From assembly GCA_021816865.1 (NCBI GenBank), contig JAKAWX010000004.1:1-64000 (forward strand): a DNA stretch of 64,000 bases. Reading direction: 5' to 3'. The position numbers were made by a program, and so were the translations under genes. The notes beneath the pieces were generated by a model. The model searched no databases. It had not been told where the DNA came from and was given only the letters and a program-made list of their open reading frames with translations. The stretch's first letter is position 1; the number at the start of each line of letters is the position of its first letter. The stretch comes from Thermoplasmata archaeon. GTDB taxonomy: Archaea; Thermoplasmatota; Thermoplasmata; Lutacidiplasmatales; UBA184. Of this stretch, positions 13,980 through 27,524 are shown one piece after another.

Positions 13980-14009
13980 TTCTTATAGTATAGCAAACAT
14001 ACTGTTTAC
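13980..14009 (+). promoter_or_regulatory. hsp20 promoter with operator-like inverted repeat
   Basis: The TATA word TTCTTATAG (13980-13988) is followed by AAACA-TAC-TGTTT (13995-14007), a perfect 5-bp inverted repeat just before the expected start site near 14010-14015. The overlapping word ATACTGTTTAC (13999-14009) recurs in reverse complement at 24111-24121, and TTCTTATAG recurs at 24121-24129. This position suits a repressor site of the heat-shock type, but the regulator is unknown. Confidence 0.55.
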
Positions 14010-14029
14010 GTACGCCGCGAGGTGCAACG

Positions 14030-14518
14030 ATGACGAAGGAGATCCAGAAGAAGGAGAGCCGAATCGACCCGTGGAGCGACATGGACCGAGCGTTCGACGA
14101 GATGCGACAGCGCCTGTTCGACGTCTGGGGGATCCAGCCGTTCGGGGCACCGTTTTTGCCCGTCGAGGGCCGCGAGTCCGCCTACTTCCGCGCGGCGCGG
14201 ACCGACGTGAGCGACACCGGCCCGGCGTACAGGATCGTCGCCGAGATCCCGGGCATCCCGAAGGACCGGCTGGATATCCGCATCCGCGGCTCGACGGTCG
14301 AGATCCGCGGCGAGAGCGCGAAGGAGTCCGAGGAAAAGTCGAGCAGCTACGTCCACCGCGAGCGGACGTACGCGGGCTACTACCGCAGCCTCGAGCTGCC
14401 CGAGCCGGTCGTGGCGACCCACGCGAAGGCGAAGGTCGAGAACGGTCTGCTCGAGCTAGAGCTGCCGAAGCAGAACCCGACCCCCTCCGAGGCCGAGGTC
14501 AAGATCGCGGTCGAGTGA
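14030..14518 (+). CDS. hsp20: Hsp20/alpha-crystallin small heat-shock protein
   Basis: A 162-aa cytoplasmic chaperone that holds unfolding proteins. The N-terminal arm (about 1-50: KKESRIDPWSDMDRAFDEM) precedes the alpha-crystallin domain (about 57-150). That domain contains YRIVAEIPGIPKDRLDIRI and the conserved ELPEPV..., with A-x(n)-NGLLELELPK as the A-x-x-x-G-L-like strand. The C-terminus AEVKIAVE carries a short I-x-V anchoring motif. It is transcribed alone, with an operator-like promoter and a strong hairpin terminator. Confidence 0.95.
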   Translation: MTKEIQKKESRIDPWSDMDRAFDEMRQRLFDVWGIQPFGAPFLPVEGRESAYFRAARTDVSDTGPAYRIVAEIPGIPKDRLDIRIRGSTVEIRGESAKESEEKSSSYVHRERTYAGYYRSLELPEPVVATHAKAKVENGLLELELPKQNPTPSEAEVKIAVE

Positions 14519-23112: not shown

Positions 23113-24057
23113 TTAAGCAGTCGGCCGTCCCCGAGCGTCCGAACCGGTTTCCGGGGGCGGCCCCGCGAGCCGGGCGAGCACCGACCGAAGGACCGCGTCC
23201 CGCACAACGTTCTCTTCGGCGGCGGTCGTCCAGAGGACCACGACCCCGTCCCACGTCGTCGGGCCGACGTCGGCGACCTCGATCCGGGGCGAAGGACGGC
23301 CGACCGGGCTCGAAACGCGCGCAGGGTCGAGCCGGGCGACCGCCGCCTCGACCGATGCGACGGGAAGGGCGGACGGGAAGGTCATCCGTACCCGCAGGGA
23401 CCGGGGCGCTCCCGCGGGGATGTGGACGACCAGCGCCCCGATCACGACGCTGTTCGGGATCTTGGCCAAGCTGCCGGAGTCGAGGCGCAGCCGGGTGTAG
23501 ATGAGGCCCACGTCCTCGACGGTGCCCGAGTAGCTCGGGTACATCATCTCGTGCGGGTAGCTCGGCCAGATCGCCCCGTAGCTCGACGAAACGAGGCTGA
23601 TGCGGTCCCCGGGCCGGAACGGGTCCGACACCACGAGCAGAAGGCCCGCGAAGACGTTCGCGAGGACCGTCTGGGCGGCGAGACCCAGGACGATGCCCGC
23701 GAGCGCGCTCCCGAGGAAGATCGACTCGAGCGAGACCCCGGCGAGCTTGAAGAGGGCCAGGACCGCGCCGACCATGATCAACAGGTTGAGGAAGAGCCGG
23801 ACCGCGTGGCCCCGCGTCACCCCGCTGTGGCGGGCGAGCAACGCGTTCGTCGCCGCCGTCACCGCCCGAGCGACGAGGTACGTCACGAGGACGATCGCCC
23901 CGGCCTCGAGGACGAGCAGCCCGATCGACCCGGCCGCGGGGTGAAACTCTCGATTGATCGCGTAGAAGACCACGAACAGCCCGACCGCCACCGCGAGCGC
24001 GACCAGGAGGTTCAGCACGAGGACGGAGAGCGGGCGGCCGGACGAGGACTGCGCCAT
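23113..24057 (-). CDS. MscS-family mechanosensitive channel
   Basis: A 314-aa small-conductance mechanosensitive channel homologue. Three membrane segments lie at about 10-33, 43-65 and 83-103. The pore helix TM3 follows as GVSLESIFLGSALAGIVLGLA then QTVLANVFAGLLLV, and the beta domain begins DPFRPGDRIS. An alpha/beta C-terminal domain ends in a disordered tail. It releases solutes under membrane tension. ATG 24057 has a GGAGG upstream; an in-frame TTG at 24096, close to the expected leaderless position for a CTATAAG box, is an alternative start. Confidence 0.87.
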   Translation of the reverse strand: MAQSSSGRPLSVLVLNLLVALAVAVGLFVVFYAINREFHPAAGSIGLLVLEAGAIVLVTYLVARAVTAATNALLARHSGVTRGHAVRLFLNLLIMVGAVLALFKLAGVSLESIFLGSALAGIVLGLAAQTVLANVFAGLLLVVSDPFRPGDRISLVSSSYGAIWPSYPHEMMYPSYSGTVEDVGLIYTRLRLDSGSLAKIPNSVVIGALVVHIPAGAPRSLRVRMTFPSALPVASVEAAVARLDPARVSSPVGRPSPRIEVADVGPTTWDGVVVLWTTAAEENVVRDAVLRSVLARLAGPPPETGSDARGRPTA

Positions 24058-24110: not shown

Positions 24111-24142
24111 GTAAACAGTATTCTTATAGCAATTAGTTATAC
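24111..24142. promoter_or_regulatory. AT-rich divergent promoter, MscS / Orc1-Cdc6-like
   Basis: This island contrasts sharply with the GC-rich surroundings. It holds GTAAACAGTAT (24111-24121), which is the reverse complement of the hsp20 operator word. It also holds TTCTTATAG (24121-24129, TATA for the GTG at 24152) and GTTATAC (24136-24142). On the minus strand CTATAAG faces MscS. Archaeal origins often lie beside orc1/cdc6 genes, but I see no ORB repeats here. Confidence 0.5.
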
Positions 24143-24151
24143 AGTCGCTCC

Positions 24152-25363
24152 GTGCATCCTGGGGTACGGACCGAGGTGCTCGCGAACGACTGGCTTCCTC
24201 CCATCGCCATCGGGCGGCAACGCGAGGTCGACGAGGTGGTCCGGCGCCTCGACCCTCCGACCCCCCATGCTCCTCCACCGTGGGTGATCGGGGTCGCGGG
24301 TCCGAGCGGGGCCGGGAGTTCGACCGTCGCACGGAGGGCCGCCCGGGAGGTCGCCGACCGGCTGCGCGCGGCCCGTCCGGACGGGACGCCCCGCCTCGTC
24401 GACGTCCGTGCGGCGGCCCAGCGGGGCACGCACGGGGTCGCCTCGAGCCTCCTCCGTCGGCTCGACGACGGGTTCGACGGCCGGGGGTTCTCGACCGTCG
24501 AGATCCTCGCCGGCTTTCTCCGGCGCCTCCGACGGGACGCGCGTCCGGTGGTCCTCGTGCTCGACGACGCGCGGATCGGCGGACCCGACCTCGCCCCCAT
24601 CCTCCGTGCGGTCGCCGAGCCAGACCGCTTCCTGCCCGAAGGCGAGCACGGGCTTCCGCCGCTCTGGACGGTGGTCGCCGGCGCGGCGGAAGCGCTGTCG
24701 AGCCTCGCGGTCTCGCTCGGCGGGCGGTTCCCGTTCGACCCGTTCGTCTCGCTCGGCCCGTACGACGGGCCGACCCTCGAGGCGATCGTCCGCGACCGAG
24801 CCGACCGCGCGTTCGGGCGGCCGGCCCCCGCGGAGCTTATCGGCCGGATCGTCCGCCGGTCGGTCGAGGACGGTGGCAGCACGCGCCGGGCGCTCGACCT
24901 TCTGCGCCGCGAGCTGCTCGGACCCGGGCCGGGCCCGCCCGGTCCCGGGCTCCGTCATCTCCTCGGCGTTGGGGTCTCGGTCGAGCCTCGGGTCGTTCGA
25001 GCGATCGGGGTCGCCTCGGGGAAGGGTGCGGCCCGGCTCGGGGAGGTACGTCGCCTCGAGGCCGAGATCGCCCGGGCGCAGGGCCTCCGCCCGTTGCCCA
25101 CGACGACGCTCTGGCGTCGGATCGTCCGGCTCGAGCAGGCCGGTTACGTACGGCGGGAGATCCGTGCCGGCGGCCTCGGGGGCTCCCGATCCCTTCTGCG
25201 GGTGCTGACCCCGATCGACGAGTGGGTCATGGCGCCCCGCCCTCGGGAAACTCTTCGAGGGTACGAACGGTGGAGCGAGGGCGAACCGTGGCGGGCGGAG
25301 GGCCCGTCGGGGCCGATTCGTCCCGGCGCGGGCCCCCCTCCGAGCGACGACGGAGCTGACTAG
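24152..25363 (+). CDS. Orc1/Cdc6-family protein with a degenerate ATP site
   Basis: A 403-aa homologue of the archaeal replication initiator. Family features are kept: LPPIAIGRQREVDEVVRRL (15-33), FSTVEILAGFLRRLRRDA (113-130), AIVRDRADRAF (211-221) and the sensor-2 region GGSTRRALDLLRR (241-253). A winged helix (about 275-375) contains LPTTTLWRRIVRLEQAGYV. The Walker A motif reads GPSGAGSST (50-58), so the invariant lysine is serine, and Walker B reads VLVLDDA instead of DE. ATP hydrolysis is therefore unlikely. It starts at GTG 24152, probably leaderless. The last 137 bp overlap Hel308 on the other strand. It may be a DNA-binding paralogue or regulator rather than the main initiator. Confidence 0.85.
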   Translation: MHPGVRTEVLANDWLPPIAIGRQREVDEVVRRLDPPTPHAPPPWVIGVAGPSGAGSSTVARRAAREVADRLRAARPDGTPRLVDVRAAAQRGTHGVASSLLRRLDDGFDGRGFSTVEILAGFLRRLRRDARPVVLVLDDARIGGPDLAPILRAVAEPDRFLPEGEHGLPPLWTVVAGAAEALSSLAVSLGGRFPFDPFVSLGPYDGPTLEAIVRDRADRAFGRPAPAELIGRIVRRSVEDGGSTRRALDLLRRELLGPGPGPPGPGLRHLLGVGVSVEPRVVRAIGVASGKGAARLGEVRRLEAEIARAQGLRPLPTTTLWRRIVRLEQAGYVRREIRAGGLGGSRSLLRVLTPIDEWVMAPRPRETLRGYERWSEGEPWRAEGPSGPIRPGAGPPPSDDGAD

Positions 25364-27524
25364 CGACCATCTCGGCGAGCTTGCGCGAGCGCAGCGCCTG
25401 TTCGATCCGGTCGATCGGCGCTTGGCGCAGCGATTCCCGGTCGGCGTAGCCGGCCCGGTAGAGCAGGCGCGCGCGAACCCGTCCGATCCCCCGAAGGCGA
25501 ACGAGGTCGAGGAGCTCCTCCTTCACGCCGTAGCGCACGCGCAACGAGAGGTCGTCGATCGGACGCCCGAGCCGGCGCTGGAACGCCATCGAGAGCCGGC
25601 TCGCGCCGAAGAGAAGCCACTCCGCGTCCTCAACCTTCGTCCGGAGGTCGCCGGCGCCGATGCCGAAGCGTTTCGTGATCTCGAGGATCGGCTCTTCGGC
25701 GATCCACTGCTCGAGCACCGTGGCCGTCTTGAGGGTCGCGAGGAAGACCTCGATGTCGAGGTCGAGCGGCGCCTCCTCGGGTTTCACGAGCAGCTCCTCC
25801 GCCTCGTCCGTGTACCGCGCGAGGAGGTCCGGCTCCTCGCCCCGACGCAAGAAGAGCGGAGGGAGGTCGGGGGTCGCCGCGACCGCCGCGAGGAGCGGGA
25901 AGGGGCCGACGCCGATCGGCGCCCGCTCGAGGGCCTGCTTGAGGACGATCGCGCTCAACGGGTCGAGGTAGAGCTCGCTCGTGAGCTGTCCGAACCGCGT
26001 CGCCCGGAGCTCCCGGCCGACGTCGAGGAGCCCGTTCTCCTCGAGGAATCGGCGGACCGAGCCGAACTTGTGGCGGAGCTCGGAGAGCGGGAGGGTCTGG
26101 CCGTAGAACGTCGACCCGAAGAACGATTCGAGGCTCTCCTCGTCCGAGACCGCCCGGCTCGCGACCAGCGCGAGCAAGTGCATCCGCAGCGCCGGCTCGG
26201 CCGCGAGCCGGCTCTCGATCGGCTCGGGCGGGGCGGAGAGGTAGCGGTCGAGGAGACGGTCCTCGTCGTCCGGGCTGCGGGCGATCAGGAGCGCTTCCCC
26301 GACCGGGTCGTAGCGGGGGCGGCCGGCGCGTCCGAGCATCTGGTGGACCTCGGTCGCCGGGATCGGGGCCTGCATCCCGAGCCGGTCGTCGTAGCGGCTC
26401 GTGTCGCGCACGATCACCCGGCGGGCGGGCAGGTTGATCCCCGCGGCGAGCGTCGGGGTCGCCACGAGCGCCTTGAGGGTGCGATCCCGGAACGCGCGCT
26501 CGACGACCCGGCGCTCGGGGTTCGTAAGCGAGGCGTTGTGGAACGCGACCCCGTAGGGCATCAATCCCGAGAGCCGACGGATCCCCTCGGTCTCCTCGTC
26601 GGAGACGTTCAGGAGCTCGGTCGCGGCGGCCCGCGCGCGGACGAGCTCGTCGGCGGTGAGGAGGGCGCGGACCGTGTGGGTGAGAGACTCGGCGGTCTGC
26701 TCGCTCGCCCGCCGGCTGTTGACGAAGACGAGCGCCTGTCCGCCGTCCTGGACGACGGTGCGCACGAGCCGGGGAACCGGCTCCCCCGGTCCGCCGACCT
26801 CGGTGACCGAGAGGTCGGTGAACGTGACCCGGCCGTCGCGGTAGACGCCCAGTTTGAGGGGGACCGGTCGGTAGGAGCTCGCGATGTGCCGCGCGCCCAG
26901 CCAGGCGGCGACCTCTTCGGAGTTGCGGACGGTCGCGGAGAGCGCGACGATCTGGAGATCCGGGTAGGCGCGACGCAGTCGCGTCAGGCTCACCTCGAGG
27001 GTCGGACCGCGGTCCGGGTCGCGCATGAGGTGAACTTCGTCCGCGACCACGACGCCCAGCCGGTCGAGCCAGGGACTTCCGCGCCGCAGAAGGCCGTCCG
27101 CCTTCTCGCTCGTCGCGACGAGCACGTCGAGCGTTTCGAGCTTGTCGGCCGTGAGGTCGAAGTCCCCGATCGAGATCCCGACCTTGAGCCCGAGCTCCTC
27201 GAACTTCGCGAGCTCCTCCGCCTTCTCGTGCGCGAGCGCTCTCAGCGGGACGAGGTAGAGCCCCGTCCGCCCCGCGCGTGCGGCGCGCAGGAGGGCGAGG
27301 TAGGCGACCAGCGACTTCCCGCTCGCGGTCGGGCAGGCGAGGAGCAGGTTCTCGCCCGCGAGGACCGGGCCGACCGCCATCGCCTGGGGCGGGTAGAGCG
27401 AGGAGATCCCGTCCTTTTCGAGGATCCGACGCCACTCGGGGTCGATGGCGGTCTCGGCGAGCGGCACCGGCGCGGCCGGCTCTACGAGGTCGACCGGCGC
27501 GCTCGTCGGGGCCCGTTTCGGCAC
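25227..27524 (-). CDS. hel308: Hel308-type ATP-dependent DNA helicase
   Basis: A 765-aa superfamily-2 3'-5' helicase involved in replication-fork repair. Motifs in order are: Q-motif region LYPPQAMAVGP, Walker A CPTASGKSL (64-72), motif II DEVHLM, motif III ALSATVRN, motif IV/V TPTLAAGINLPARRVIV and motif VI QMLGRAGRPRYD. The winged-helix and ratchet domains follow, and the helix-hairpin-helix RLRGIGRVRARLLYRAGY lies near 690. The C-terminal 50 residues are low-complexity and overlap the Orc1-like gene. It is convergent with that gene and 22 bp downstream of the acyl-CoA dehydrogenase gene. Confidence 0.94.
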   Translation of the reverse strand: MPKRAPTSAPVDLVEPAAPVPLAETAIDPEWRRILEKDGISSLYPPQAMAVGPVLAGENLLLACPTASGKSLVAYLALLRAARAGRTGLYLVPLRALAHEKAEELAKFEELGLKVGISIGDFDLTADKLETLDVLVATSEKADGLLRRGSPWLDRLGVVVADEVHLMRDPDRGPTLEVSLTRLRRAYPDLQIVALSATVRNSEEVAAWLGARHIASSYRPVPLKLGVYRDGRVTFTDLSVTEVGGPGEPVPRLVRTVVQDGGQALVFVNSRRASEQTAESLTHTVRALLTADELVRARAAATELLNVSDEETEGIRRLSGLMPYGVAFHNASLTNPERRVVERAFRDRTLKALVATPTLAAGINLPARRVIVRDTSRYDDRLGMQAPIPATEVHQMLGRAGRPRYDPVGEALLIARSPDDEDRLLDRYLSAPPEPIESRLAAEPALRMHLLALVASRAVSDEESLESFFGSTFYGQTLPLSELRHKFGSVRRFLEENGLLDVGRELRATRFGQLTSELYLDPLSAIVLKQALERAPIGVGPFPLLAAVAATPDLPPLFLRRGEEPDLLARYTDEAEELLVKPEEAPLDLDIEVFLATLKTATVLEQWIAEEPILEITKRFGIGAGDLRTKVEDAEWLLFGASRLSMAFQRRLGRPIDDLSLRVRYGVKEELLDLVRLRGIGRVRARLLYRAGYADRESLRQAPIDRIEQALRSRKLAEMVASQLRRRSEGGPRRDESAPTGPPPATVRPRSTVRTLEEFPEGGAP

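Follow-up and report, generated by a model that had tools for sequence, protein, structure and literature searches.

The window, a stretch of 64,000 nucleotides from a Thermoplasmata contig, encodes a protein (K0) that is, as judged by sequence comparison, an inherited third Orc1/Cdc6 paralogue that is found throughout a family of soil archaea and lacks the Walker A lysine, and neither a sequencing error nor a dying copy. Because its hydrolytic residues are lost and its DNA-contact residues are kept under selection, K0 is most likely a non-initiator DNA-binding regulator without an ATP hydrolysis switch, a reading to which we assign a probability of roughly 55%. Initiators are thought to require an ATP cycle for switching between DNA-binding states, and the selected, Lys-less K0 clade offers a natural test of the Orc fold without that cycle, as well as a counterpart in prokaryotes to the dead AAA+ subunits found in eukaryotic ORC.

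By sequence, K0 is a remote member of its group. It matches NCBIfam TIGR02928 with an E-value of 6e-15 and 55 bits, under the 181-bit (181.3) cut-off, and its Pfam matches to Cdc6_lid (17 bits) and Cdc6_C (12 bits) are both sub-threshold. Membership is settled by the fold: the best PDB matches found by Foldseek for an AlphaFold2 model of K0 (pLDDT 78.5, with only sequences from the window and related loci as input) are all archaeal Cdc6/Orc1 proteins (2qby, 2v1u, 1w5t, and 1fnn; E-values of 1e-15 to 2e-13, probability 1.00), and the predicted AAA+ module, ISM, and C-terminal winged helix clearly place K0 in the Orc1/Cdc6 group. The first-pass annotation had seen likeness to Orc1/Cdc6 throughout, which holds for the fold, ISM, and winged helix, while sensor 2 is kept only in part. 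K0 shares with archaeal Orc1/Cdc6 initiators (TIGR02928; 2qby, 2v1u, 1w5t, 1fnn) the fold and the AAA+/ISM/winged-helix order, together with the P-loop glycines and Walker B Asp. It differs from them in its score under the family cut-off, in its HTH and wing residues, and in the loss of the ATPase residues of a functional initiator, namely the Walker A Lys, the catalytic Walker B Glu, the sensor 1 Asn, and the box VII Arg, the last two of which had escaped the earlier description.

Features of K0, its neighbours, and the MEY gene (window positions unless a locus is named)
Feature	Position	Strand	Remarks
K0, Lys-less Orc1/Cdc6 paralogue, 403 aa	24152-25363	+	GTG start, no internal stop
Walker A GPSGAGSST, residues 50-58	24299-24325	+	Ser56 replaces Lys; codon AGT, 24317-24319
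ISM region GFDGRGF, residues 107-113	24470-24490	+	invariant Gly across the family; invariant Phe across the genus
Walker B VLVLDD, residues 134-139	24551-24568	+	acids D138-D139
Sensor-2 region, residues 241-252	24872-24907	+	partly degenerate
Winged-helix HTH, residues 312-331, core PLPTTTLWRRIVRLEQAG	25085-25144	+	
Wing, residues 335-347, REIRAGGLGGSRS	25154-25192	+	R335, G340, G341, G343, G344 invariant family-wide
Conserved K0 promoter, GTAAACAGTAT + TTCTTATA (24121-24128) + AGTTATACA	24111-24143	+	
hel308 (Hjm) helicase, convergent, conserved neighbour	25227-27524	-	137-bp overlap of its 3' end with K0
MscS-type channel gene, divergent neighbour	23113-24054	-	in many, not all, relatives
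MEY protein, ~193 aa, begins MEYVVVRATHPTWLT...	L171:1540-2118 (G000:C6:146465 onward)		
MEY promoter sequence, AGGATTCTTATA			

A sequence alignment was made of 53 K0 proteins (44 from the host genus and 9 from sister genera), 14 Orc2, and 29 Orc1; over Walker A, the K0 rows come from the host genus plus five of its sister genera in the family of UBA184, which is assigned to the order Lutacidiplasmatales (PMC9287336). The serine at codon 56, claimed at first reading, is borne out. Across the orthologues the Lys position is occupied by T (40), S (12), or V (1), and all 43 of the aligned Orc1 and Orc2 proteins (29 and 14, respectively) have the Lys; the loss is conserved and the replacing residue varies. 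The first-pass annotation had allowed that orthologues with a normal Walker A might expose the serine as an isolated error; such orthologues were looked for, and Lys is present in 0/53. Since Lys is absent from every orthologue, a single-genome error is excluded, and as its loss is common to independent metagenome-assembled genomes (MAGs) of many studies, the probability that codon 56 reflects a sequencing or assembly error is negligible.

At the catalytic Glu position of Walker B, K0 has D in 44/44 genus rows and N, Q, or D (four, three, and two rows) in the sister genera. The DD that had been pointed out in place of DE is present, but is weak evidence alone because the Pyrobaculum Cdc6 1fnn likewise has DD there in the alignment. 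The first sensor-2 Arg is found in 21/44 genus rows and in 1/9 sister-genus rows. Because the catalytic residues are gone, we infer with good support that K0 is non-hydrolysing, as first proposed.

The nucleotide-facing residues are not all lost. The P-loop glycines are kept in 52 or 53 of the 53 K0 proteins (one A, at the first Gly), and the Mg-site Ser and Walker B Asp in 53/53. This retention exceeds the expectation for free decay and is consistent with a possible but doubtful alternative, in which K0 is a nucleotide-sensing, non-hydrolysing DNA-binding switch whose Lys-independent P-loop, GxxGxG[T/S]S, binds nucleotide. That Lys has mostly given way to T or S, within a fixed GTS/GSS motif, fits this alternative, as does a weak Pfam similarity of K0 to the PRK/uridine-kinase P-loop; some phosphoribulokinase P-loops likewise lack Lys. 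However, the loss of the sensor 1 Asn and the box VII Arg speaks against a nucleotide sensor, as does that of the sensor 2 Arg beyond the genus, and the conserved glycines may simply keep the shape of the loop.

Conservation in K0 is concentrated in the parts that would contact DNA. Within the genus it reaches 0.83 in the HTH and wing and 0.83 in the ISM hairpin, versus 0.66 in the AAA+ module; no such preference for the HTH and wing is seen in Orc1 and Orc2 (0.72 and 0.66, against 0.70). HTH residues W321, R322, and R323 and wing residues R335, R338, and Gly340, 341, 343, and 344 are invariant across genus K0, and R322, R335, and all four wing glycines are also invariant in the sister genera. 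The ISM Gly is invariant, and the Phe is present in 44/44 genus rows, the aromatic being gone in 6/9 sister-genus rows. K0 HTH and wing residues are unlike those of both Orc1 and Orc2 in the alignment, suggesting different DNA targets. In the proposed mechanism, K0 no longer hydrolyses ATP but still binds DNA: it would contact DNA via its winged helix and ISM with no hydrolysis switch, its binding would depend on how much K0 is present or on a partner, with no ATP/ADP cycle in control, and initiation would be left to canonical Orc1 (and Orc2).

The retained Orc fold and ISM, and the coexistence of an intact Orc1, are also what one would expect if K0 were a catalytically dead member of an origin complex that mixes Orc1, Orc2, and K0, tuning origin binding or MCM loading. 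A precedent is Trypanosoma brucei ORC4, a eukaryotic ORC subunit which has lost its Walker A Lys while the gene is retained, and which has been proposed to act as a book-end (PMC3297607). Like K0, it is an Orc-family AAA+ protein with a degenerate Walker B that has been kept in evolution. ORC4 has reported conserved trans residues (PMC3297607), whereas K0 has lost box VII, the trans Arg, a loss that would leave it unable to complete the active site of a neighbour. The divergent HTH and wing residues, and the absence of origin-like repeats beside K0, likewise argue against a mixed complex, which we regard as unlikely, slightly more so than nucleotide sensing. No ORB-like repeats were recognised near K0, where the ORB of the host lineage may have a form of its own. 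With no such repeats and no clear skew turn within the window, a replication origin beside K0 seems unlikely and was set aside.

K0 is carried throughout its family. Relatives of the host are Thermoplasmata MAGs, UBA184 among them, and K0 orthologues were found in 34/37 genus genomes, the remaining three being 57-78% complete. When 390 phylum genomes were searched with a profile, K0 turned up in all sampled genus genomes and in the same-family sister genera g24-g28. In total, 22/22 sampled family genomes with completeness of at least 90% have K0. The one apparent exception in the family, G340, proved to have a K0 copy adjoining hel308, also without Lys. Matches outside the family score ~100 bits or less, and the four retrieved among these are of Orc2 type and keep Lys. 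The host genome (1.54 Mb in 11 contigs, 83% complete) encodes an intact canonical Orc1 (G000:C6:115960-117030, with GKIGTGKT and LDEID), in agreement with the earlier designation of K0 as a paralogue. Most genus genomes carry an Orc2-type protein as well; none was found in the host assembly, probably because of its incompleteness.

K0 proteins are monophyletic (100/100) in two trees, and by this topology the clade arose once. In the unrooted tree the closest neighbour of K0 is the Orc2 of its own family (split support 92/89), and K0 probably derives from duplication of an Orc2-type gene in the family ancestor; the trees suffer from uneven composition and from long branches, the latter leaving moderate evidence for this origin. 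The dN/dS values of K0 (NG86, seven pairs, including the C-terminal part that overlaps hel308) are 0.19-0.32, indicating purifying selection, and the intact frame noted at first reading was confirmed over 403 codons without a stop, with the winged helix under selection.

These values bear on the other half of the original proposal, which had offered an origin-binding regulator or a plasmid-like remnant. K0 does evolve faster than its paralogues (between-genome identity of 49-60%, compared with 79-86% for Orc1 and 70-78% for Orc2 in the same genomes), as a decaying pseudogene or a plasmid- or virus-derived remnant might. Nevertheless, the dN/dS range, the intact frames, and a stable chromosomal locus by hel308 make decay or a mobile origin very improbable, and a search for plasmid, phage, and viral relatives of K0 returned no matches. 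The remnant was rejected on these grounds, and a DNA-binding regulator fits the selected winged helix.

The K0 gene is convergent with hel308 in nearly every orthologue on a long enough contig, sister genera included, often with a 3' overlap. Exceptions are G012 (L035), in which hel308 lies ~4 kb farther along, and one of two K0 copies in G157. No K0-type gene adjoins hel308 in the eight Thermoplasmata genomes outside the family whose contigs extend past the hel308 3' end; two further genomes were uninformative. In the window, the tail-to-tail coding overlap spans 25227-25363, where the C-terminal tail of K0 is poorly conserved (0.37). The two K0 copies of G157 lie at contig ends, and its assembly gave no match in a hel308 search at E 1e-60.

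A regulatory role for an Orc paralogue has been described in Sulfolobus/Saccharolobus, in which Orc1-2, like K0, is an extra paralogue beside the initiators with an ISM, a winged helix, and paired winged-helix arginines (PMC9738581). S. islandicus Orc1-2 is a non-initiator regulator of the DNA damage response that binds its own promoter (PMC9738581); on the K0 side, what was observed is conservation of the promoter. Orc1-2 keeps a working Walker A and B and needs both ATP binding and hydrolysis (PMC9738581), whereas K0 has neither the Walker A Lys nor the Walker B Glu of such an intact ATP switch, and the two lineages are distant. With the Walker A mutation K72A, Orc1-2 no longer bound ATP, was a poor DNA binder, and closely resembled the deletion in its behaviour (PMC9738581). 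This counts against the regulator reading of K0, under which an Orc protein without Lys must somehow have compensated. K0 would then offer a second possible route from initiator to regulator.

The conserved promoter upstream of K0 ends 8 nt before the GTG, with leaderless-type spacing. Conserved across K0 orthologues are AGWWTTCTTATA, ~30 nt upstream of the start, and a following AGTWATNCA. In the 1.54-Mb genome, the K0 promoter is the only place with an exact AGWWTTCTTATA. With one mismatch allowed in 14 family genomes, the search returned the K0 sites, one further site that recurs, and a small number of others near the control rate. In the host and eight other genus genomes this recurring site precedes an orthologous gene for a ~193-aa protein, MEY, by 28-41 nt; in G096 it is closer to the MEY start. 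Most of the tested genomes of the genus share the element at MEY. G274 and G271 have a looser TTCTTATA left upstream of MEY; the element is absent there in G001, G019, G340, G311, G241, and G157, and most sister-genus genomes lack it. MEY is present in 13/293 phylum genomes, all within the family of K0; it has no Pfam match, and its PDB matches are at chance level only. Near-palindromes were seen in the MEY promoter element of G018 (TATAAGATTTCTAATA; L182, G018:C4:54509) and in several K0 promoters (TAAGAWWTCTTA).

The shared element includes the TATA box, so part of its conservation may be basal; the near-palindromic forms suggest that an operator for a dimer overlaps this box. The likeliest K0 targets would be its own promoter and that of the orphan MEY gene. 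The shared element hints at a two-gene regulon, a co-regulation lead and not proof, in which orthologous promoters are not independent observations. The fuller proposal, that K0 is an ATP-independent, Orc-derived transcription factor with a dedicated regulon of itself and MEY, held stably beside hel308 family-wide, is tentative, and less probable than the regulator reading in its general form.

The genome has two copies of GTAAACAGTAT, one at the K0 promoter and one at hsp20 (window 14030); in the hsp20 promoter region at 13980-14030, TTCTTATA is accompanied by GTAAACAGTAT in inverted orientation, the sole other genomic copy of this 11-mer. Co-regulation of hsp20 with K0 was rejected, as orthologous hsp20 promoters do not preserve the K0-type element and have their own, different conserved motif, TATA...AAACWTA. 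G157 has three MEY-like genes, one of them ~2 kb from a K0 copy (L124, G157:C71), and an FtsZ-like gene lies ~2 kb downstream of MEY in the host genome.
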